Shown: piece by piece, positions 18,129 to 31,401 of the stretch | How positions within the stretch are numbered: position 1 is the first letter of the stretch | Layout of the letters: the number at the start of each line of letters is the position of its first letter | Source: Kaistia soli DSM 19436 | GTDB taxonomy: Bacteria; Pseudomonadota; Alphaproteobacteria; Rhizobiales; Kaistiaceae | NCBI RefSeq assembly: GCF_900129325.1 | Contig: NZ_FQUP01000001.1 | Location: forward strand, 620,001 to 684,000 | Length of the DNA: 64,000 nucleotides | Direction: 5' to 3' | The notes under the pieces: model-generated | Seen by the model: only the letters and a program-made list of their open reading frames with translations | Told to the model about the DNA's origin: nothing | The model's database searches: none | Position numbers and translations under genes: made by a program

Positions 18129-19253
18129 GTGGCGATGCTCGGCGCGGCTTTGACCGCGACGTGGCGCGTCCCGGTGGAAGCTCAGACGAGACGGCCGATG
18201 CTCTATCCCCGAGAAGAATTGACCGAGGCGGCCGGCTATCCGGCTCTGGTGCGGTTCGATCCCGGGCGGGCCGAACTCCCTCTCGTCGTGTTCATCACCG
18301 GAGGCGGAGTGCTCGGTCGGGTTGCCTACGGACCGCCTGGGGGAAGGACCGATGATTTCCTTTGCCATTGGCTGCATGAAGAAGGGTTCCCGTCGCTGGT
18401 CCTGTCCTACCCCATCGACAACAGCGGCGTGTTTGACGCCGCATTCCCGCTGTTCTCGATGACCAACTGGGCGGAGCAGAGCGCCGAGATCATCGCCCGT
18501 TACGTGGACCGGAACGGTCTGCCGGCAAACGTCGTCGTACTTGGCTGGAGCATGGCAGGGCGGATCGCGGAGCCGCTTCATGCAGCGCTGCAACGAAAGG
18601 GAAAGGGCATCGAACTCTTCGTCGCGATGGCGGGTGCATCGGCACTCCCCAATACTCTGCCCGGGCTCGACCATCTGACGCCAGCGCCGAGCGGCCTTGC
18701 CGCGATCAAGGGCGCCTACGTCGACTGGCTGCTCCACTGCCTCGCGGATCAGAACGCGGCAGCCGGCCATTCGGTGCTTGATGCCGCGAGGTTCACGGGC
18801 GAGATGACCGGCGATTTTCCGGTAGGGCTTGCGGCATCGGCGATGCGCTACAGAAACGGAGACTTCGTCCGCGACTCCGCCGGCGACGCGCTGGAGATCG
18901 GGACGGCGCAATATCGCGCCTTTCCGCCGCTCGCCTTGATGACGCACGCCTCTGCGATCGACGCCCGGCACGCTCTCACCGACCGCTCGACATGGGGCGT
19001 CTACATCACCCAGCAGCTATGCGAGACCCTCATCTTCTCCCGGCCAGACAAGCTCGCCGCCCTCCCCTCCGCGAAGTGGGTGAAGCTGGACGAGCATATC
19101 AGCCACGCCGCGCAGCGGCTGAGCGCCACGCTGCCGGGCAACCACATGTTCTTCCTCGGAGAGAAGGGCGCGCGGAAGACCGTGCAGGCGCTGAAGCTCC
19201 TCAGGCAAACCGCAACGGACGTTGCAGGTGAGATTTCGCGCCTGATGGCGTAG
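18129..19253 (+). CDS. Alpha/beta-hydrolase-fold protein, Tat-type leader with unclear start
   Basis: 374 residues from the GTG at 18129. The nucleophile elbow GWSMAG lies near residue 140 and an HISHAA/GNHMFF segment may supply the histidine. VVFITGGGVLG near residue 55 resembles an oxyanion-strand region. Just upstream in the same frame the DNA encodes LNRRQVAMLGAALTA, a good twin-arginine signal, but there is no ATG, GTG or TTG before it. A CTG at 18099, ten bases after GGGGGA, would restore it. Either a rare start is used or the export signal was lost. The substrate is unknown; an esterase or depolymerase-like role is possible. Confidence 0.6.
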   Translation: MAMLGAALTATWRVPVEAQTRRPMLYPREELTEAAGYPALVRFDPGRAELPLVVFITGGGVLGRVAYGPPGGRTDDFLCHWLHEEGFPSLVLSYPIDNSGVFDAAFPLFSMTNWAEQSAEIIARYVDRNGLPANVVVLGWSMAGRIAEPLHAALQRKGKGIELFVAMAGASALPNTLPGLDHLTPAPSGLAAIKGAYVDWLLHCLADQNAAAGHSVLDAARFTGEMTGDFPVGLAASAMRYRNGDFVRDSAGDALEIGTAQYRAFPPLALMTHASAIDARHALTDRSTWGVYITQQLCETLIFSRPDKLAALPSAKWVKLDEHISHAAQRLSATLPGNHMFFLGEKGARKTVQALKLLRQTATDVAGEISRLMA

Positions 19254-19409: not shown

Positions 19410-20516
19410 CTATACGGCCTGAGGCCCTGGATCCGCTTGTATGGCTGCCGCGACGACGATTATCGCCAGCGGGATGAGATTTGGCTTCGGCCCGGCAGCG
19501 AGGCGCGCGGCCATCCCGGCCTCCATCCGATCCATGAAATCGCGAACGCGTTCAGCGCTCGTGCCCTCCGAAAGGTCACGCGCAAGCGTTGGAAGGACCG
19601 ATGCCCTGGAGAACGCGGCCCAGCGCGCGCCGAAGGCTGTCGCATTGCCGTCGGCAAGGAAATCGCGCCAGATCGCGTCGTCGCCCTCGAATATCTCGAT
19701 ATCCTCCAGTTCGAGGCCGGAAAGCTCACCGGACGTGAATGGTGCCGCGAACTCCGCACGCGTCCGACCGACTGTCGGGATTGCCATCCTCGCCGCCTCC
19801 TCCTGCCGGACCACGCCCTCGGTCACCAGTTCCTGCAGCGCGTCATACATGGCCGTCAAAACCGACCCGTAGCCGAAGTCGCCATCATCGGTCTGGGCCA
19901 TGGTGATGATGACGAGACGGCCACCTGGCCGTAGTTCGCGGCGGCGATGCTTCAGGAAGACCAGCCAATCATCGGCGGCCTGGGCTGCGAACGCGGCGCG
20001 CGTGGCGTCGTCCTTGCTGTAGGCAACCTGCACATGGTCCGGAATTGCGACCGGCGTCCGGCTCAGCCATTGCACGGACCAGGCGCACCATCCGAGTGTC
20101 ACGCTGTCGTCGGGAAGGATCTGCTCGTAGAAGGAGCGTCCGATCGCGCTGGCAAAGGCGCCTTGGTCCAGCTTCAGATAGCTTCCCGGATCATCGTTCA
20201 ACAGTTCGAACAGTGCGCTGAAGTCATTCTCGGCAAGATCGGTATGGACGACCGATATTGCCCGGCCGCTGCCGAGGCGCTGCCGCAGAGTCTGCACCGC
20301 GATCGCCATCGGAATCAGCGAATTGCGCCCCTGCGAAGCGCCGTAATCGGCGACGACGATCGGACCTGCCCCCTCGGACAGCGGGACGTCGAGGGCAGCC
20401 TGCTCGAGGCGCGGCAATGCTGGCGAAGCCCCTGCGGCCTGCACCGCCGATCTCGAATTGTAGCCACCGCGTCCTTCCATGGGCGCGGGTCTGGCCAATT
20501 GCGGTTCGTCTTGCAT
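19410..20516 (-). CDS. SABATH-type SAM-dependent carboxyl methyltransferase
   Basis: 368 residues. The N-terminal GYNSRSAVQ and the SAM-binding IVVADYGASQGRNSL near residue 55 match Methyltransf_7 (SABATH) proteins, as do HTDLAENDFSALFELL, SVTLGWCAWSVQWLS and LRPGGRLVIITM. Plant members methylate carboxyl groups of salicylate, benzoate, jasmonate or theobromine precursors. Bacterial members probably do the same on small acids. The tryptophan in the SVQWLS loop is the usual substrate-clamp position. The nearby benzoylformate decarboxylase and flavin hydroxylase make an aromatic acid a reasonable substrate guess. A weakly hydrophobic C-terminal tail (IPLAIIVVAAAI) is odd for this family. Confidence 0.8.
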   Translation of the reverse strand: MQDEPQLARPAPMEGRGGYNSRSAVQAAGASPALPRLEQAALDVPLSEGAGPIVVADYGASQGRNSLIPMAIAVQTLRQRLGSGRAISVVHTDLAENDFSALFELLNDDPGSYLKLDQGAFASAIGRSFYEQILPDDSVTLGWCAWSVQWLSRTPVAIPDHVQVAYSKDDATRAAFAAQAADDWLVFLKHRRRELRPGGRLVIITMAQTDDGDFGYGSVLTAMYDALQELVTEGVVRQEEAARMAIPTVGRTRAEFAAPFTSGELSGLELEDIEIFEGDDAIWRDFLADGNATAFGARWAAFSRASVLPTLARDLSEGTSAERVRDFMDRMEAGMAARLAAGPKPNLIPLAIIVVAAAIQADPGPQAV

Positions 20517-20672: not shown

Positions 20673-21845
20673 CTAAGGCGACGGCGGAGCTAGCAAGGCG
20701 ACGGTCGCCATGGTCCGCTCGAAGTCTCTGAGGTTTTCCGCCTCCGACTTCCCGAGGATCGCGCGGATCTGGGTGCGGACCGTCATGAGGGAGACGCCGC
20801 GTCCGCGCGCCACATCTTCGGCGCTGGCGCCGCCCGAAAGCGCGACCGCGACTTCCGCCTCGGCGCGGCTGAAGTCGAACATCTCGCACAGCATGTCCGC
20901 TTGCGGCGATACCTTGCGATCAATCGGCCGCAGAATGAGCAGCGCGAGAGGTTCACGGCTGCCGCCGCCTTCCATCGTGTAGACATCGTCGGCGAGCCGC
21001 TGCGGCGCCGGCGTGACCATCATCGCGAGCGCCGAACCGTCGCGCGCGACAAGACGCATCGACCCTCCCGCTCCTCCTGATGTCGCGGAGGACACGAGCC
21101 GGCGGAGGCGGGCCGCGTCGTCGCGCGACAGGGCAGCGAGATAGACGCCGCTGCCGGCGAAGGCCCCCGACCGCCGGAACACAAGGCCTGCGTCAGGTCC
21201 CGCCAGATACCTGCGGGCCATATCGTTGACGAAGCGGATTCTCAGGGACGCATCGACGACACCCACGCCCACCGTGAGCGCGTTCACGGCCGCTTGGGTC
21301 AGCGAAGCGGCGTGCTCGTCGCGCGCAAGGCGCAGCCGGAGCTCGAGAGCACGCTGTACATGCGGCATCAGGGCCCGCAGCAAGCGGATATGCGTCTCGT
21401 CAAACGCGCCGGCATCGTCGCCGCGGAACACCAGCACAGGCGTCGCCTCGGCAATGCCAGCCATGCCGCCGATCACATGACGGCGTTCATGGTGGCGAGC
21501 GAAATCGACGTAGAACTCGCTGCGGAGGAAGTCGCTCTCGACGACCAGTTCGGCGCCGAGCTTGGCATTCCCCATGTGGTAGCTGCGCGCCTGCGCGAAA
21601 TCGCGGCGGGCCTTCGCGGCATAGGGGTCGGCTTTGTGGAAATGCGCCGCATAAGCCATCTCGCTGCCATCGGCCGGCATCAGGAGATTACCCGGCCCGC
21701 CAGGCCCGCCAGCGTTCAGCAGGACCCGCCGCGCCTCCAGAATCCGGCAAATACGCTCGCCGACGTCATGCCAGCTGCCGTCGCCGGACCCAGCCTGATA
21801 GATGGCGCCGACGCAATCGGCGAGATCGCGCTCAATGTCGGCCAT
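20673..21845 (-). CDS. LuxR family transcriptional regulator
   Basis: 390 residues from the ATG at 21845, preceded by GGGAG; a longer frame reaches 21935. The C-terminal 65 residues are a LuxR/GerE helix-turn-helix (FDFSRAEAEVAVALSGG, then VSLMTVRTQIRAILGKSE). The N-terminal 300 residues are a sensory region without a recognised name but with LLRALMPHVQRALELRLRL, a helix common in this regulator group. There is no receiver domain. It faces the cupin/decarboxylase genes across a spacer full of inverted repeats and is the natural candidate to control this accessory region. Confidence 0.8.
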   Translation of the reverse strand: MADIERDLADCVGAIYQAGSGDGSWHDVGERICRILEARRVLLNAGGPGGPGNLLMPADGSEMAYAAHFHKADPYAAKARRDFAQARSYHMGNAKLGAELVVESDFLRSEFYVDFARHHERRHVIGGMAGIAEATPVLVFRGDDAGAFDETHIRLLRALMPHVQRALELRLRLARDEHAASLTQAAVNALTVGVGVVDASLRIRFVNDMARRYLAGPDAGLVFRRSGAFAGSGVYLAALSRDDAARLRRLVSSATSGGAGGSMRLVARDGSALAMMVTPAPQRLADDVYTMEGGGSREPLALLILRPIDRKVSPQADMLCEMFDFSRAEAEVAVALSGGASAEDVARGRGVSLMTVRTQIRAILGKSEAENLRDFERTMATVALLAPPSP

Positions 21846-21998
21846 TGCCAGCTCCCGTCCCCGGAAACGAGAGTGCCAGAGCCGTTTCTGAGGTTCAATG
21901 GATGGACAAGCGACTTTTGCATGTGACGTTTCCAAGAGTTGCCGTCACAGGCCAGTCGATATCGTATTCCTTTCACCAGTTCTGTTGATGCGTCCGGC

Positions 21999-22133: not shown

Positions 22134-22616
22134 ATGACGATCAATTTCCTGCATTCGAGGGGCACGGAGCTGCCCATCAAGATCCCCGCCATCGGGCTCG
22201 ATCTGTTCGTGAGAATGCCGCCGGCCGCCAGCGGCAACGCGTTCTGCTTCATCGAGACGATCAATGCGCCGGGCTTCGGTCCACCGCGCCACCGGCATCC
22301 CGAAGCGGAGATCTTCCGCGTCATCGAGGGCCGCTATCTCTACGAGGCCGATGGACGCCGCTTCTACGCCGAGGCGGGGGATGTCGTCTGCATCCCCGGC
22401 GGCATGGAACACGGTTTCGTCAATGTCACCGACGCTCCGGCCCGGCAATATATCCTGATGACGCCGGCCCTCGATGCCGCCACCTTTTTCACCGAGCTCG
22501 GCGGCGTCATGCACAACGGTCTTCCCGACACTGAAGCGCTCAATGCATTCGGCATCAAGTGGCAGGTCGAGTTCCTCGGGCCGCCGGTGAAGCGGGACGA
22601 ACTGCCGACCGAATGA
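22134..22616 (+). CDS. Cupin domain protein
   Basis: 160 residues, single cupin barrel. Cupin motif 1 reads PPRHRHPEAEIFRVIEGRY with two histidines and a glutamate as metal ligands. Motif 2 reads GDVVCIPGGMEHGFVN with the third histidine. The metal site is therefore intact. Single-domain cupins include dioxygenases, isomerases and sensors, and nothing here decides between them. The gene is the first of the rightward set that continues with benzoylformate decarboxylase 280 bp later; that spacer (22617-22895) shows no gene. Confidence 0.85.
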   Translation: MTINFLHSRGTELPIKIPAIGLDLFVRMPPAASGNAFCFIETINAPGFGPPRHRHPEAEIFRVIEGRYLYEADGRRFYAEAGDVVCIPGGMEHGFVNVTDAPARQYILMTPALDAATFFTELGGVMHNGLPDTEALNAFGIKWQVEFLGPPVKRDELPTE

Positions 22617-22823: not shown

Positions 22824-24482
<1,659 letters not shown>

Positions 24483-24635: not shown

Positions 24636-24974
24636 ATGCGAACCATCCTGAAAGGTCTTGTTGCCATTGGCCTGACGGCACTGGCGGCGACGGATGCCTC
24701 GGCGGCGTCAATCACCGTTCCTGTCCAGGCTCCGAATTTCAACATCGTCCTCGTCGCGCAGGGCTGCGGTCCATATGGCTGGCGCGGTCCCTGGGGTCAT
24801 TGCCGTGACACCCCGTTCACCGGGCGGATGCCGGGCGGCGGCTGGGCCTACAATCTGCCGCCGGCCTACGGCTATTTCGGCAATGGCTGCCCGCCCGGCT
24901 TCTGGCACGGGCCGTGGGGTCACTGCCGCGACACGCCGTATCATGGCCGGCTTCCCGGTGGCGGCTGGCAATAG
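24636..24974 (+). CDS. Small secreted Gly/Trp-rich protein with two internal repeats (GCG_CRPN-like)
   Basis: 112 residues. A signal peptide of about 23 residues ends TDASAA. The mature part begins with SITVPVQAPNFN and then has two near-identical modules: GCGPYGWRGPWGHCRDTP plus GRMPGGGW, and GCPPGFWHGPWGHCRDTP plus GRLPGGGW. Each holds two cysteines and a WGHCRDTP block. This resembles small secreted proteins catalogued as GCG_CRPN prefix-to-repeat proteins, whose role is unknown. A GAGGTG ribosome site precedes the ATG. It is 42 bp ahead of the LTXXQ-like gene, so the two probably form an operon of exported proteins. Confidence 0.75.
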   Translation: MRTILKGLVAIGLTALAATDASAASITVPVQAPNFNIVLVAQGCGPYGWRGPWGHCRDTPFTGRMPGGGWAYNLPPAYGYFGNGCPPGFWHGPWGHCRDTPYHGRLPGGGWQ

Positions 24975-25016: not shown

Positions 25017-25514
25017 ATGAAAACAACATTCCTGACCGCGATCGCGCTGGGTGCTTTCCTCGCCTCGGCACATCCCGTCCTGGCCGAGGACGCAACGCCG
25101 CCGGCCAATCCTCCCGCCGTCGAAATCTACACGGAGGCCGATGCACAGGCCGTCCTCGACGCCCGCATCATTGCCCTCAAGACCGTAATCGGTCTCTCCG
25201 TCGATCAGGAGAAGCTGTGGGCGCCTGTGGAGACAGCCATTCGGCAGATCGCTGCAAGTTCGGCCGCGCGGCGGGCCAAGCGCGCAGACGCCCCTGAGCC
25301 GGCGAGCTTTGTCGACATTCTGGAGCGGACCGCCGACGCGGAGGCGACGCGTGCCGCCGAGCTCAAGACCGTCGCCGAGGCACTGAAGCCGCTGGTCGCC
25401 ACGCTGACGCCGGAGCAGCAGCGCCGGATTCCGGCCTTCCTCGGCCTGCGCGAGGCGAACAACGGAATTCCGCAACCGACGGCGGAACTGTGGCTGTTCG
25501 AGGAGGAACAATAG
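25017..25514 (+). CDS. Spy/CpxP-like LTXXQ periplasmic protein
   Basis: 165 residues. A signal peptide ends VLAEDA near residue 24. The mature part is helical, with DARIIALKTVIGLSVDQEKLW and EALKPLVATLTPEQQ; the LTPEQQ is the LTXXQ motif of Spy/CpxP chaperone-like proteins. These bind misfolded envelope proteins or sense metal and envelope stress. It follows the repeat protein by 42 bp. It may protect or chaperone that secreted partner, but this is inference from position only. Confidence 0.75.
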   Translation: MKTTFLTAIALGAFLASAHPVLAEDATPPANPPAVEIYTEADAQAVLDARIIALKTVIGLSVDQEKLWAPVETAIRQIAASSAARRAKRADAPEPASFVDILERTADAEATRAAELKTVAEALKPLVATLTPEQQRRIPAFLGLREANNGIPQPTAELWLFEEEQ

Positions 25515-25652
25515 GCGGCATGGCGAAGCACGAGGACCTGCTGCGGCGGGTCCTCGGGAAGCGAACCAAGCCAGCGTTGCGCCGCGGTCGACGCAGATCA
25601 TGCCGGCCGAACTGAATCTTCGCCGGTGGAACAGAAGTTGAGGGGAGCCAAA

Positions 25653-27125
25653 ATGACAGATTGCGTTCTGGTAGCCGGCGCCGGGCCGGTCGGGCTGACG
25701 ATGGCGCTTGAACTTTCGCGCTACGGCGTTTCGGTCCGCGTGATCGACAAGATTTCCGGACCTTCGGACACGTCGCGGGCCGTCGCGATCTGGCCGCGCA
25801 CGCTGGAACTGCTCGATCGCTCCGGCGTGGCAGCAGACCTCGTCAAAGCGAGCAATCACGTGGTGTCGGCCAAGATCTTCTCCGGCAACACCCTGGTCGG
25901 ACAGATCAAGCTCGACGGAATCCCGTCATCGTTCCCCTTCGCGCTCATGGCGCCGCAATACGAGACGGAAGGCGTGCTGCGCCGCCACCTGAAGGCGCAG
26001 GGCGTCGAGCCCCAATTCTCCACGGAGCTCGCGGACATCGCGCAGGATGCGGACGGCGTTAGCGCGACGTTGCGCGCCGCGGACGGGACGGAGACCACGG
26101 AACGCTTCGACTGGCTCGTCGCCTGCGACGGCTCCCACAGCGTGGTACGCCATCGCCTCGGCCTCGAGTTCGAGGGCGACACGCTCGGCCTCGACTGGAC
26201 CCAGGGCGATTTTCACCTGACCGGCATGCCGATTCCCGCCTCGGAACTCGCCATCTTCTGGCATCCGGAAGGTGCGCTGATGTTCTTCCCGATGGCGCCG
26301 GATCGCTATCGCATCATCACCAGCCTCGGCCCCTCGTCGGACGTCGAACCCGTTCCGCTCGACCTCGCCGCCTTCCAGAAAGTCATCGACCGCCGCGGGC
26401 CCGGCGGCATCACGCTGACGGACACGGTGTGGACCAGCGCCTTCCGTATCAATGAACGGCAGGTCGACGCTTACCGCTCCGGCCGGATCTTCCTCGCCGG
26501 CGACGCCGCCCACGTGCACAGCCCGGCCGGCGGCCAGGGCATGAATACCGGCATGCAGGACGCGATCAACCTCGCCTGGAAGCTGGCTCTCGTCAGCCGG
26601 GGCATCTCCACGGCGCCGGTGCTGCTCGACAGCTACGACGCCGAGCGCCGGCCCGTCGGAGCCGAAGTGATCCGTGAATCCGGTCGGCTCACCAAGGCCG
26701 CGACGCTGGAGAGCCACGCCCTGCAGGACGTCCGCAATTTCGTCGCGCATCTCGTCCTTGGCCTGCCCGCCGCCCAGCATGCCATCGCCGGGATGATCAC
26801 CGAGGTCGCGATCGGCTATCCGCAAAGCCCGCTGAACGGACCGTCGGACGACGGCGCCGCTGCCGGCACCCGCGTGCCGCCAGCGGTCGGCGAGACGCCC
26901 TATGGCGGGGCCGATTCACCGCGCTTCAGCCTGCATGGCACCGGCGAGGGCGCCGCGTCGCTGGTGTCGCAGTTCCCGGCCCTGCTGGAGCCGCAGCTTC
27001 GCTCCCCGCAGGCGGCGGGCGGCCTCGCCCTCGTCCGGCCCGACGGCTATCTGGCGATGTCCGTGCCGGAGCGAGACTGGCCGGAGATCGCCGCTTATCT
27101 GGCGCGGTTTTCCGCACCGGCCTGA
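25653..27125 (+). CDS. FAD-dependent aromatic monooxygenase (PheA/TfdB/UbiH-like)
   Basis: 490 residues from the ATG at 25653, which has AGGGGAG before it; a GTG at 25626 is the alternative. The dinucleotide-binding GAGPVGLTMALELSRYG is at the N-terminus, the DG motif is WLVACDGSHSVVRHRLG near residue 160, and the second FAD motif is GRIFLAGDAAHVHSPAGGQG near residue 285 (split: GRIFLAGDAAHVH, SPAGGQG). These are the three signatures of group A flavin hydroxylases. They insert one oxygen into phenols or polyketide aromatics using NAD(P)H. It leads a set with the two NHLP-like genes and the CocE hydrolase, spaced 64 bp, overlapping, and 78 bp. The substrate is not identifiable. Confidence 0.88.
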   Translation: MTDCVLVAGAGPVGLTMALELSRYGVSVRVIDKISGPSDTSRAVAIWPRTLELLDRSGVAADLVKASNHVVSAKIFSGNTLVGQIKLDGIPSSFPFALMAPQYETEGVLRRHLKAQGVEPQFSTELADIAQDADGVSATLRAADGTETTERFDWLVACDGSHSVVRHRLGLEFEGDTLGLDWTQGDFHLTGMPIPASELAIFWHPEGALMFFPMAPDRYRIITSLGPSSDVEPVPLDLAAFQKVIDRRGPGGITLTDTVWTSAFRINERQVDAYRSGRIFLAGDAAHVHSPAGGQGMNTGMQDAINLAWKLALVSRGISTAPVLLDSYDAERRPVGAEVIRESGRLTKAATLESHALQDVRNFVAHLVLGLPAAQHAIAGMITEVAIGYPQSPLNGPSDDGAAAGTRVPPAVGETPYGGADSPRFSLHGTGEGAASLVSQFPALLEPQLRSPQAAGGLALVRPDGYLAMSVPERDWPEIAAYLARFSAPA

Positions 27126-27189: not shown

Positions 27190-27534
27190 ATGACCGGAGA
27201 TTTCGAGAGAAAGCTGACGAGGCGCGTCTGGGCGGACGACGCCTTCGCGGATCGACTGGAAGAGCGGCCCGACGAGGCCCTGCAGTCGATCGGCCTGTCG
27301 GTGCCGGCCGGGGTCAAGGTGAAGGTCGTCGTTCAGAAGCGCGACAGGATCTACTTCACGATACCGCCGGTCCGGAGCCCGGGCTCGCCGCCGCCGACGG
27401 CGCCCCTCAACCAGTTCGACCTCTGGTCGAGCAAGGGTCTGTTCATCTGGCTGGTGCCGGTTGCAGCCAAGTTCAAGCTGCTCGCCCTGCGCAACGCCGC
27501 GCGCCAGACGGGGGATGGTCATGCGCAGCCCTGA
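27190..27534 (+). CDS. NHLP-like (nitrile hydratase leader peptide type) small protein 1
   Basis: 114 residues with a strong GAGGAGG ribosome site. Residues 8-62 match the pattern of nitrile-hydratase-alpha-like leader peptides. They comprise RRVWADDAFADRLEERPDEA, the block IGLSVPAGVKVKVVV, and RDRIYFTIPP, the usual end of such leaders. The remaining 50 residues are proline-rich, then contain LWSSKGLFIWLVPVAAKFK and a polar tail. NHLP leaders direct modification of proteusin and some thiazole/oxazole-modified peptides. There is no YcaO, LanM, radical SAM or C39 transporter gene in the window, and the tail is not Cys/Ser/Thr-rich. A non-RiPP role is possible. Confidence 0.65.
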   Translation: MTGDFERKLTRRVWADDAFADRLEERPDEALQSIGLSVPAGVKVKVVVQKRDRIYFTIPPVRSPGSPPPTAPLNQFDLWSSKGLFIWLVPVAAKFKLLALRNAARQTGDGHAQP

Positions 27535-27883
27535 TTTCGTCGAGGCTACTTACGAGCGCATCGCGACCGATCCGGCCTATCGTGCCAGGCTGCTGGCCGA
27601 TCCGGTCGCCACCGTCTCAGCGGAATTCGGCTACACGCCAGGGCCGGACCTGAAGATCGAGATCATCGAGCAGGCGGACGACACCATCATCATCATCGTA
27701 CCGCCGAAGCCCGAGGCGGGCGAGGATCTAGAGAGGGCGTTGGAGCGCGTGACGGAGCAGTCTCTCGACCTGCTGTTCTCGTCCGGCATCGGCGGCTTCT
27801 TCATCCCGGACGACGCCCAGAAATGGCTGCTCCGCGCGATGCGACTGGCATCCCAGGAGAAGGCCGACCCGGCGGGATCGTAG
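27521..27883 (+). CDS. NHLP-like small protein 2
   Basis: 120 residues from the ATG at 27521 (another ATG at 27515), overlapping the previous gene by 14 bp, with CGGGGGA as ribosome site. Residues 6-63 again follow the leader pattern: YERIATDPAYRARLLADP, then GYTPGPDLKIEIIEQADD and TIIIIVPPKP. The tail is an acidic helix (EDLERALERVTEQSLDLLF), a GIGG sequence, then FFIPDDAQKWLLRAM and a short polar end. Processing after the double glycine is possible in principle. The two proteins share architecture more than sequence, so they look like an old duplicated pair or heteromeric partners. Confidence 0.65.
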   Translation: MRSPDFVEATYERIATDPAYRARLLADPVATVSAEFGYTPGPDLKIEIIEQADDTIIIIVPPKPEAGEDLERALERVTEQSLDLLFSSGIGGFFIPDDAQKWLLRAMRLASQEKADPAGS

Positions 27884-27961: not shown

Positions 27962-29914
27962 ATGATGCCGATTACTAAGAAGCAAGAGTTCTGGGACAAT
28001 CTGATTCCGCTGAAGGGCGGGCTCTTCGGCGAGCAGCTCGCCGGCTGGAGACCGGGCCCGGCCGCGCGATTGGGGCTCGGCTGCCGCATCCTGGCGGACC
28101 AGCGGATCGACGTCGCGCCTAACGTCGCGCTCGCTGCCGATGTCTACCTTCCGAAGGTTCCGGGGCGCTATCCCGCCGTTATCGCCTTCGCCGCCTATTC
28201 CAAGGAGCTGCAGGCCGCCGGTGCGCCGACGGGCTCCAACGAGGCCGGCAGCCCCCCGGTGTTCACCGATCGCGGCTATGCCCATATCATCGTGGCCCGC
28301 CGCGGCATGGGCCGCTCGACCGGTGCCGACGCCGTCTATCTGAACGACACGGACGTCGCCGACCACGCCGTGGTCATTCAATGGGCCGCGGCGCAGCCCT
28401 GGTGTGACGGGCAGGTCGCGCTCTTCGGCACGTCCTACTATGGCATGACCCAGCCGCAGGTAGCGCGGCTTCGCCAAGCGGCCTTGAAGGGCTTTTTCGC
28501 CATCGAGATGTGCACGGACTTCTTTCGCCACATCGCCATGTTCGGCGGCTCACCCCAGCCCGATTTTTTTGCGACATGGATGGGCGCCAATTTCACGCCG
28601 TTCCAGTTCAAGCTGCATGTGCCGCCGCTGCTGCGCGCGATGGCTAGCCACATCACCAACTCGCCGCTCAAACGGCTGTGGTGGCCACAACTGAAGAAGC
28701 GCATGACGCGGGTCATGCGAGGATTCCGGAACGAAACGCCGACAAGGGCTTCGCTCGGATTGTTCGCCGCCCTCATGCTCGACGGCAAGACCCGCGCCAG
28801 CAGCGTCCTGCCGGCCGGCCCTTCCGGCGCGCTGGGCGACATCGCGGTCCCGTTCGTGGTCGTTCAAAACCCCGGCTATCTCAATCTGCACCAGTTCGGC
28901 GCCTATGACCTGTTCGAGAACGCCGGCACGCCAGCTGCCAGCAAATGGCTGATCATCGGATCTCCCGCCTATGAACTGCCCGCCTATCACTGGCAACTCG
29001 AGGCGCTCGCCTTCTTCGACCATCTCCTCTACGGCGCCGACAATGGCTATGCGAGCCAGGCGCGGGTGCGCTACTGGCGCCAGGGCGCCAGGACCTACGG
29101 CTCTGCAGAAGACTGGCCGCCTCCGCAGAGTGCGCCGCTACGGCTCTATCTCGCATCGAATGGCGCCGACAGGACCACGCACTGTCTGACGCCAGAGCCG
29201 CCGACCGACGGTCTGAAGAACCGCTGGGCGGCCGTCCCTCCGGGCGCTACGCTTGCAGCCGGCTTCGACGAGGTCACCAATCAATCCCTCGTCTTCGAAC
29301 TGTCGATCGAGGACGAGATGGAACTGGCCGGCCCTGTGACGGTGAGTCTCGCCTTCAGCTCGAACGAAATCGATTCCCACGTCGTGGCCCGCACGGGCGT
29401 CGTTGCGGCTGACGGAAGTTACACGATCCTGTCGATGGGCATGATCCGGCCGGCGTGCCGACGGATCGACGAGACCCGCTCCACAGCCACTGAGATCGCC
29501 ATCGACGTTGACACACCGGAGCCGCTCGTGCGGGACGTTCCGGTGATGCTCCGCTTCAGCCTGACGCCGCAGCCGGTCCTGCTGCGGCCCGGCGAGCGCT
29601 TTCGCCTCGACATCGGAAGTCGCACGGATCTCCTGCGCAGCGATGTGAGCCACGGCTACGCGCAATTCGACATGCAGGTTCCGCCCTATTTCGCGCGCAA
29701 CGCCGTCCACTACGGCGAGGACAGCTTCATCGAAATGAGGCACGTAGCGAGTATCCGATCTCTGCGATGGGGCTCTGCAGAAAATTGGCAGCCCGAACCC
29801 GCGAGACGCCGGTCGCCTCGGCCAGCCGGCAGATCGCGCCCAATCGCACGAATGCCCGCCTTGCCAGATCCGATGCGCCGCGTCGCTAGCCCGCAAGGAC
29901 CCGTCGGGCCGTAA
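27962..29914 (+). CDS. CocE/NonD family hydrolase (X-Pro dipeptidyl-peptidase S15 type)
   Basis: 650 residues. The S15 catalytic domain has VALAADVYLP, RRGMGRSTG and the nucleophile motif GTSYYGMTQ near residue 160. The C-terminal jelly-roll domain is visible from about residue 430 (ELAGPVTVSLAFSS, RFRLDIGSR, YFARNAVHYG). Relatives include cocaine esterase, alpha-amino-acid ester hydrolases and acylases. The final 55 residues are Arg/Pro-rich and do not look native; the gene's decayed copy ends soon after the YFARNAVHYG block, so the stop here may have been lost. It sits downstream of the NHLP-like pair and may act on an ester or amide made by the same operon. Confidence 0.82.
   Translation: MMPITKKQEFWDNLIPLKGGLFGEQLAGWRPGPAARLGLGCRILADQRIDVAPNVALAADVYLPKVPGRYPAVIAFAAYSKELQAAGAPTGSNEAGSPPVFTDRGYAHIIVARRGMGRSTGADAVYLNDTDVADHAVVIQWAAAQPWCDGQVALFGTSYYGMTQPQVARLRQAALKGFFAIEMCTDFFRHIAMFGGSPQPDFFATWMGANFTPFQFKLHVPPLLRAMASHITNSPLKRLWWPQLKKRMTRVMRGFRNETPTRASLGLFAALMLDGKTRASSVLPAGPSGALGDIAVPFVVVQNPGYLNLHQFGAYDLFENAGTPAASKWLIIGSPAYELPAYHWQLEALAFFDHLLYGADNGYASQARVRYWRQGARTYGSAEDWPPPQSAPLRLYLASNGADRTTHCLTPEPPTDGLKNRWAAVPPGATLAAGFDEVTNQSLVFELSIEDEMELAGPVTVSLAFSSNEIDSHVVARTGVVAADGSYTILSMGMIRPACRRIDETRSTATEIAIDVDTPEPLVRDVPVMLRFSLTPQPVLLRPGERFRLDIGSRTDLLRSDVSHGYAQFDMQVPPYFARNAVHYGEDSFIEMRHVASIRSLRWGSAENWQPEPARRRSPRPAGRSRPIARMPALPDPMRRVASPQGPVGP
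29432..29740 (+). repeat. Direct repeat copy A (3' part of the CocE gene)
   Basis: This stretch of the intact hydrolase gene recurs at 31063-31371 with about ten differences, mostly in the last 60 bases. The first 240 bases differ at only a few positions. Upstream of it the two copies are much more divergent. Confidence 0.9.
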
Positions 29915-30934: not shown

Positions 30935-31401
30935 GCCGGCTTCGACGAGGTCGCCAATCAATGCCTCGCCTTCGAAATGCCGATCGAGAACGAAATGGAG
31001 TTCACCGGGCCCGTGGTAGCGCGCATCGGCCTCGTCGCGGCGGACGGAAGCTACAAGATGCTTCGATGGGCATGATCCGGCCGGCGTGCCGCAGGATCGA
31101 CGAGACCCGCTCCACAGCCACTGAGATCGCCATCGACGTCGACACACCGGAGCCGCTCGTGCGGGACGTTCCGGTGATGCTCCGCTTCAGCCTGACGCCG
31201 CAGCCGGTCCTGCTGCGGCCCGGCGAGCGCTTTCGCCTCGACATCGGAAGTCGCACGGATCTCCTGCGCAGCGATGTGAGCCACGGCTACGCGCAATTCG
31301 ACATGCAGGTTCCGCCATATTTCGCGCGCAACGCCGTCCACTATGGCAAGGACAACTTTGTCGAGATGAGGCGCGCGGCCAGTGGCCGACCACTGCAATA
31401 G
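30935..31401 (+). pseudogene. Decayed 3' fragment of a second CocE hydrolase gene
   Basis: The DNA matches the C-terminal domain of the intact hydrolase from GFDEV onward. Relative to that gene it lacks 45 bp (15 codons after GPV) and one further base before SMGM, which breaks the frame. The catalytic domain is absent. The fragment ends with its own stop after FVEMRRAASGRPLQ, which probably shows where the intact gene once ended. A non-functional remnant is the simplest reading. Confidence 0.85.
31063..31371 (+). repeat. Direct repeat copy B (in the decayed CocE fragment)
   Basis: Partner of the repeat at 29432-29740, offset by 1631 bp. Near identity here against strong divergence just upstream suggests a recent conversion or recombination tract. 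Confidence 0.9.

Follow-up and report, generated by a model that had tools for sequence, protein, structure and literature searches.

NHLP domains serve as a flag for RiPP precursors, and the closest described relatives of the two small genes reported here are of this kind. The proteusin-type precursors collected under TIGR03793 are small, are sometimes encoded in tandem and share, by profile, the N-terminal domain of our proteins. Such leaders are structured and serve as binding sites for a flavin-dependent brominase and for a YcaO enzyme (PMC10858898, PMC12455567); the brominase acts on NHLP-led peptides (PMC10858898). NHLP-type precursors of Burkholderia lie in tandem and lack the GG motif (PMC2887384); this NHLP-Burk family (TIGR03795; BMA_0021/BMA_0022) forms tandem pairs without GG motif 2, and our pair is likewise in tandem. 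A second relative is the nitrile hydratase alpha subunit (PF02979/TIGR01323), which has a segment of its fold in common with both of our proteins by profile. The mandelate-pathway MdlC clusters resemble the locus in another way, through a benzoylformate decarboxylase that is close to the solved enzyme. To our knowledge, the Pseudomonas mandelate operon holds nothing like these two genes. Among the publications retrieved, mostly as entries in literature listings, we recognised none that describes the pair.

The two genes lie in Kaistia soli DSM 19436, within a stretch of 64,000 nucleotides that we refer to as the window and to which the coordinates below belong. The first, p1 (27190..27534, forward strand), encodes an NHLP/NHase-alpha-like protein of 114 residues with a conserved tail from about residue 72 (PLNQFDLWSSKGLFIWLVPVAAKFKLLALR), and its ATG is preceded at a few bases' distance by GGAGG. 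The second, p2 (27515..27883, forward strand), encodes a paralogue of p1 with 122 residues and the conserved tail LDLLFSSGIGGFFIPDDAQKWLLRAMR. Its frame overlaps that of p1 by 20 nt, or by 14 nt if the alternative start at 27521 is used. Such an arrangement is general in the family: of 18 loci, 17 have the p2 start inside the p1 frame, and in the other the two genes are 2 nt apart.

Both proteins have significant E-values against TIGR03793 despite scores below its curated cut-off of 50.9 bits (p1, E 2.2e-10 and 40.2 bits; p2, E 3.4e-6 and 26.8 bits), and they are the sole matches to this profile in the genome in a search at E <= 10. Some true NHLP precursors also score just under the same cut-off, e.g. 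L133:9398-9727 with 48.5 bits. The NHase_alpha profile PF02979 (cut-off 27.2 bits) gave E 0.028 and 14.3 bits for p1 and E 1.5e-5 and 25 bits for p2. The initial annotation had called the genes an overlapping pair with NHLP-like regions and had proposed these two profiles as a check; the overlapping frames and the matches of both proteins bear the description out, and all four scores stay below the curated cut-offs. Against TIGR03795 (cut-off 41) p2 reached 15.5 bits and p1 was unlisted at E <= 1. Unlike NHLP-Burk, the window proteins have no C-terminal Cys, their last residues being QP and GS, and the genome has no YcaO match. Profiles built from the two families match solved nitrile hydratase alpha subunits as well as NHLP proteins (p1 profile A4 with 4zgj at E 1.7e-9 and 8tb1 at E 6.5e-6; p2 profile A5 with 1v29 at E 1.8e-10 and 8tb1 at E 8e-8), and we regard the fold family as established at the level of sequence comparison.

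One could read the pair as a nitrile hydratase remnant that still hydrates nitriles, in view of the match to the alpha subunit fold, of the Streptomyces records that annotate pair members as nitrile hydratase and of a nitrilase-like neighbour in Neorhizobium (TIGR04048 E 3.7e-71, below cut-off). The metal ligands are absent, however. Five true NHase alphas recovered in the same searches carry CTLCSC, whereas p1 and p2 of the window contain no Cys at all, are much shorter than the alpha subunit and have an extra tail. Cys occurs in 2 of 18 p1 rows and 14 of 19 p2 rows of our alignments, with one p2 column holding it in more than half of the rows and no conserved Cys motif in either alignment. 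We therefore rejected a nitrile hydratase function, and consider the remnant reading hardly credible.

The initial annotation had also described the tails of the two proteins as unlike, which does not hold. Profile-profile alignment of the two families with hhalign covers 106 columns including the tails (probability 98.0, E 2.8e-13), i.e. p1 and p2 are paralogous through their tails. The p1 alignment (18 sequences from two phyla) has 9 invariant columns among 33 in the tail and 10 among 57 in the NHLP region, and the p2 alignment (19 sequences, again from two phyla) has 9 among 39 and 8 among 58. Invariant polar residues are N74, D77, S81, K94 and R101 in p1 and D83, R105 and R108 in p2 (numbered from the start at 27521). 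They could build an active site from both tails, and the pair might then be a cofactor-free hydratase, lyase or hydrolase, a reading also favoured by its location next to genes for nitrilase-like proteins, hydrolases and decarboxylases. We think this quite improbable, since the tail models are unreliable (AlphaFold mean pLDDT 57.6 for p1 and 56.8 for p2, with tail blocks mostly below 50) and the best PDB profile alignments end ahead of the tail, at about residue 74 in p1 and 78 in p2.

Tail and preceding domain are conserved to much the same degree, as the comparison of p1 residues 4-60 with 73-105 and of p2 residues 5-62 with 72-110 indicates (linkers and chain ends excluded). For p1 pairs below 55% overall identity, the tail identity was 0.497 against 0.477 in the NHLP-like region, with the tail equal or higher in 50 of 85 non-independent pairs; for p2 the values were 0.518 and 0.423, with the tail equal or higher in 83 of 91 pairs, likewise non-independent. 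The control consisted of different true NHLP precursors whose leaders were less than 75% identical; it used 16 of the 18 read, since a quirk in the pattern applied by the script excluded the other two. Here the core identity was 0.117 against 0.520 for the leader, and the core was below the leader in all 109 non-independent pairs. Different true precursors of the window's order accordingly share a common leader through SGG, AGG or SAG and diverge thereafter. Orthologous true precursors of two related species have near-identical cores, and hence constancy among close relatives alone is no argument for a protein. Comparing the window genes with seven others each, we found dN/dS below 0.5 throughout p1 and p2 and values of 0.04-0.46 in both tails, indicating purifying selection. 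The tail value was lower than that of the NHLP-like region in 6 of 7 comparisons for p1 and higher in 5 of 7 for p2.

These comparisons bear directly on the possibility that p1 and p2 are a two-component RiPP, in which constant-core precursors, as in cofactor-type RiPPs, would be modified by cluster enzymes such as the FAD monooxygenase or a PapA5-like acyltransferase, with cleavage of p2 after its GxGG and of p1 by an unknown peptidase. The GxGG is invariant within the conserved motif of p2, 28 residues before the C-terminus. It keeps the modification reading alive together with the enzymes that bind NHLP leaders, and so do the NHLP profile matches and the precedents in PMC10858898 (a flavin enzyme on NHLP-led peptides) and PMC2887384 (tandem Burkholderia precursors without the GG motif). 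The PapA5-like enzyme (E <= 1e-20) was found in 2 of 397 genomes of the order, at L128:7772-9208 and L027:12283-13545, in both cases within about 5 kb of the pair; two genomes keep the pair without the frequent neighbour enzymes nearby. We nevertheless consider such a RiPP unlikely. Its tails would have to be constant where those of different true precursors are not, and p1 has no GG at a shared position (GG occurs in 4 of 18 rows, at differing places). No YcaO or SPASM match was found in the whole genome at E <= 0.001, and the single C39 peptidase match lies on the same contig about 526 kb from the pair, in keeping with the earlier statement that neither YcaO nor C39 genes are nearby. A LanM-type search (PF13575) matched none of the control genomes and carries no weight here. 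A YcaO- or SPASM-dependent RiPP was rejected on the genome-wide result. The PapA5-like acyltransferase was dropped as a universal modifying enzyme, since no match to it at E <= 1e-20 was found in the four pair-bearing genomes of the same genus. The pair loci compared share no single enzyme family, whether modifying or otherwise.

As far as our samples go, neither protein seems to occur without the other. Among 397 genomes of the order, an identical set of 8 gave strong matches (E < 1e-25) for p1 and for p2, and the two were adjacent in each. At E <= 0.001 the p2 profile matched 17 and the p1 profile 12 of these genomes; the weak matches (9 genomes for p2, 4 for p1) are by eye GG-type NHLP precursors or NHase alphas, with L011 and one place in L137 left unassigned. 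Both proteins are present in 3 of 13 other genomes of the window's genus. A phylum-wide sample searched with the first p2 profile (A2, E <= 0.001) gave 4 of 398 genomes, all of the window's own order (G000, G271 and, weakly, G196 and G310). Among 72,556 plasmid records, p1-type and p2-type queries returned the identical 10, namely four of Methylocystis parvus, five of Streptomyces and one of Neorhizobium, which amount to about four distinct sources because of repeat assemblies and near-identical strains; the surroundings were read for 5 of the 10. The Streptomyces members came from plasmids, the chromosome searches having covered the window's phylum only. One scan of viral contigs showed no relatives among the 100 pattern matches listed. 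Several loci and genomes named here are probably the same and are not independent (L016/G007, L017/G008, L046/G013 and L024/G158, the last at 100%).

The neighbours of the pair in the window are the flavin hydroxylase and CocE hydrolase that the initial annotation had named. A FAD_binding_3 monooxygenase (25626..27125, forward strand) lies on the 5' side, its nearest named relatives being those of Mesorhizobium sp. BR1-1-16 (91%) and Kaistia dalseonensis (88%), and a CocE/NonD-family hydrolase (27962..29914, forward strand) lies on the 3' side. Some 1.1 kb farther downstream, at 31060-31383 (ORF 30961-31401), the 3' portion of the CocE gene is repeated incompletely, with 94% identity over residues 490-597. 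Upstream on the forward strand are a cupin gene (22134..22616), which is conserved in the cluster, a benzoylformate decarboxylase gene (22833..24482), a small GCG_CRPN-repeat protein gene (24636..24974; in 5 of 17 compared gene sets and in G271) and an LTXXQ-family gene (25017..25514; in 11 of the 17). The decarboxylase can be aligned along its length with the benzoylformate decarboxylase of known structure (1bfd, 742.9 bits; NF005485 798.4 bits, cut-off 493). The Ser, the Glu and the two His that we take to be catalytic are kept in this alignment. Farther out are a probable alpha/beta hydrolase (18129..19253, forward strand; no NCBIfam match, a GWSMAG elbow by eye), a SABATH-type carboxyl methyltransferase (19410..20516, reverse strand; PF03492, 130 bits) and a probable LuxR-type regulator (20673..21935, reverse strand; weak family matches only). 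The hydrolase has relatives at a distance of 2-6 kb from the pair in L128 (82%) and L024 (66%), and none was found in the other Kaistia-type loci fetched; relatives of the regulator were seen in L046 and within the G271 cluster, and the methyltransferase was otherwise seen in L046 alone, which makes its place in the cluster less certain.

The order of monooxygenase, p1, p2 and CocE, which the initial annotation had proposed to survey, is conserved in part. The survey ran on genomes found via the pair itself rather than via the hydroxylase. CocE adjoins the pair in 5 of the 8 strong-match genomes (G000, G007, G008, G013 and G158), and the FAD enzyme is beside it in 4 of these 5, the short flank of G008 stopping before the position of the FAD enzyme, which is present in the presumed matching record L017. 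The remaining genomes depart from this order. Both genes are about 35-38 kb from the pair in G271, and no reference-cluster gene was found near the pair in G341 and G364 (about 60 kb and 20 kb read), where the pair adjoins an APH-type kinase gene and a HupE/UreJ gene. At L127:7475-9898 of G364, p1 starts 54 nt past the APH-type phosphotransferase gene, with the HupE/UreJ gene upstream. The CocE subfamily was found in 7 of 279 genomes of the order, a smaller sample than the 397 used for the pair; 6 of the 7 carry the pair, and the 20 kb read in the seventh, G110, contain no copy of it. The absence of CocE from G341 and G364 refers to the local stretches. For the FAD enzyme, the best 80 of 487 relatives gave 68 loci without the pair within the flank and 12 with p1 and/or p2, p1 lying beyond the locus end in L019, L027 and L034 of the latter; these loci were fetched with the FAD enzyme as query, so its proximity to the pair is partly built in. 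In L028 and L035, two loci in which we found no pair, the FAD enzyme gene is followed by a relative of the cupin gene.

Kaistia-like loci keep the order cupin, benzoylformate decarboxylase, GCG_CRPN protein, LTXXQ protein and FAD monooxygenase, followed by p1-p2-CocE; in L017 a D-lactate dehydrogenase gene stands between the monooxygenase and p1-p2-CocE. Loci of Xanthobacter, Ancylobacter, Aquabacter and Chelatococcus, all fetched by the FAD enzyme, have p1-p2-CocE and the FAD enzyme with varying extras (malic enzyme, a second ThDP enzyme, D-lactate dehydrogenase, PapA5-like acyltransferase, hydantoinase-type and S-Me-THD-type genes). About 42 kb of G271 hold, besides the pair, genes for S-Me-THD, GCG_CRPN, FAD monooxygenase, CocE, benzoylformate decarboxylase, UbiD, a UbiX-family flavoprotein (PF02441), cupin, LuxR-like regulator, pirin, tautomerase, malic enzyme, alpha/beta hydrolase and PapA5-like proteins. 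For unannotated loci we relied on a simple gene-calling script, which leaves the limits of small genes rough and missed some p1 and p2 copies; L135 and L173 were read in part, and the join from L172 to L173 was not fully covered.

Plasmid-borne pairs keep similar company in both phyla. Two different plasmids of Methylocystis parvus OBBP (L154 and L155) carry p1, p2, rubredoxin, pirin, tautomerase, CocE, a short hypothetical gene, GST and mdlC. The Streptomyces goshikiensis plasmid has the order CocE-p1-p2-mdlC, with a CocE protein only 26% identical to that of the window. The Neorhizobium plasmid carries a divergent FAD monooxygenase gene, the nitrilase-like gene, an alpha/beta-hydrolase-like gene, p1 and p2, the last three overlapping by 4 nt each. 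On the plasmid of S. anthocyanicus, a monooxygenase (FAD) gene is followed by p1 fused behind a RidA-type domain (TIGR00004 E 1.7e-6, below cut-off) and by p2. This fusion argues against a RiPP, and together with the constant tails it suggests that the tail is part of the working protein rather than a released core.

The initial annotation had offered two readings: a new pairing of precursor and modification, and a protein of two subunits that stems from nitrile hydratase alpha. Most counts go against the first, namely the profile scores, the lack of a conserved GG in p1, the constant tails, the negative YcaO and SPASM searches and the RidA fusion. The second agrees better with pairing in every strong case, overlapping frames, tails constant in two phyla and the absence of the metal-site cysteines. 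The pair is thus more likely a two-part working protein than a pair of peptide-antibiotic precursors. With modest confidence we propose that p1 and p2 are a heterodimer derived from the NHase alpha fold, acting as an accessory or carrier protein of an aromatic 2-oxo/2-hydroxy acid pathway.

Under this proposal p1 and p2 would each supply one half of a heterodimer that is obligate and translationally coupled. The heterodimer would derive from the NHase alpha/NHLP fold, lack a Cys metal site and bear a constant C-terminal tail on each subunit; the pairing and the overlapping frames suggest a 1:1 complex. It would be dedicated to a small-molecule pathway. The NHLP-like domains may dock the FAD monooxygenase, the benzoylformate decarboxylase and the CocE-type hydrolase, and both tails could jointly form a binding or reactive site. 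The substrates are probably aromatic 2-oxo or 2-hydroxy acids; judging from family names, aromatic-acid chemistry is suggested by the recurrent decarboxylase, monooxygenase and hydrolase genes and, in G271, also by genes for UbiD, pirin and tautomerase. Several observations count against the heterodimer proposal: G341 and G364 keep the pair without the reference-cluster genes in the stretches read, the pair loci have no enzyme family in common, the FAD enzyme often occurs without the pair, the models are poor, the GxGG of p2 can be read as a double-glycine site, and the dN/dS of the p2 tail and the divergence of the S. goshikiensis CocE do not fit well.

We also speculate, as a long shot, that the Trp- and Ser-bearing invariant tails are oxidised or acylated by the cluster enzymes to give a protein-borne reactive group, which would allow the heterodimer to serve repeatedly as cofactor or carrier in the chemistry of aromatic 2-oxo acids. 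The pair would then be a protein substrate turned tool, instead of a source of secreted peptides. More generally, a family from two phyla that has an NHLP domain and constant tails and is found only in pairs would imply that this fold serves a non-precursor role as well, which would help prevent false RiPP calls, and the decarboxylase, monooxygenase and hydrolase genes that usually accompany the pair offer a small gene set for finding that role.

The same searches recovered several true precursor loci. Two related genomes, G140 and G315 (L129-L132, L136 and L138), have several separate NHLP precursor loci with SGG, AGG or SAG sites, and none of the eight neighbouring genes scanned is a known RiPP enzyme. 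At L133:8247-10252 a GNAT-type acetyltransferase gene lies directly 5' of two SGG-type NHLP precursors, a layout that recalls the selidamide arrangement. L134 has the same layout with a predicted acetyltransferase-like gene.
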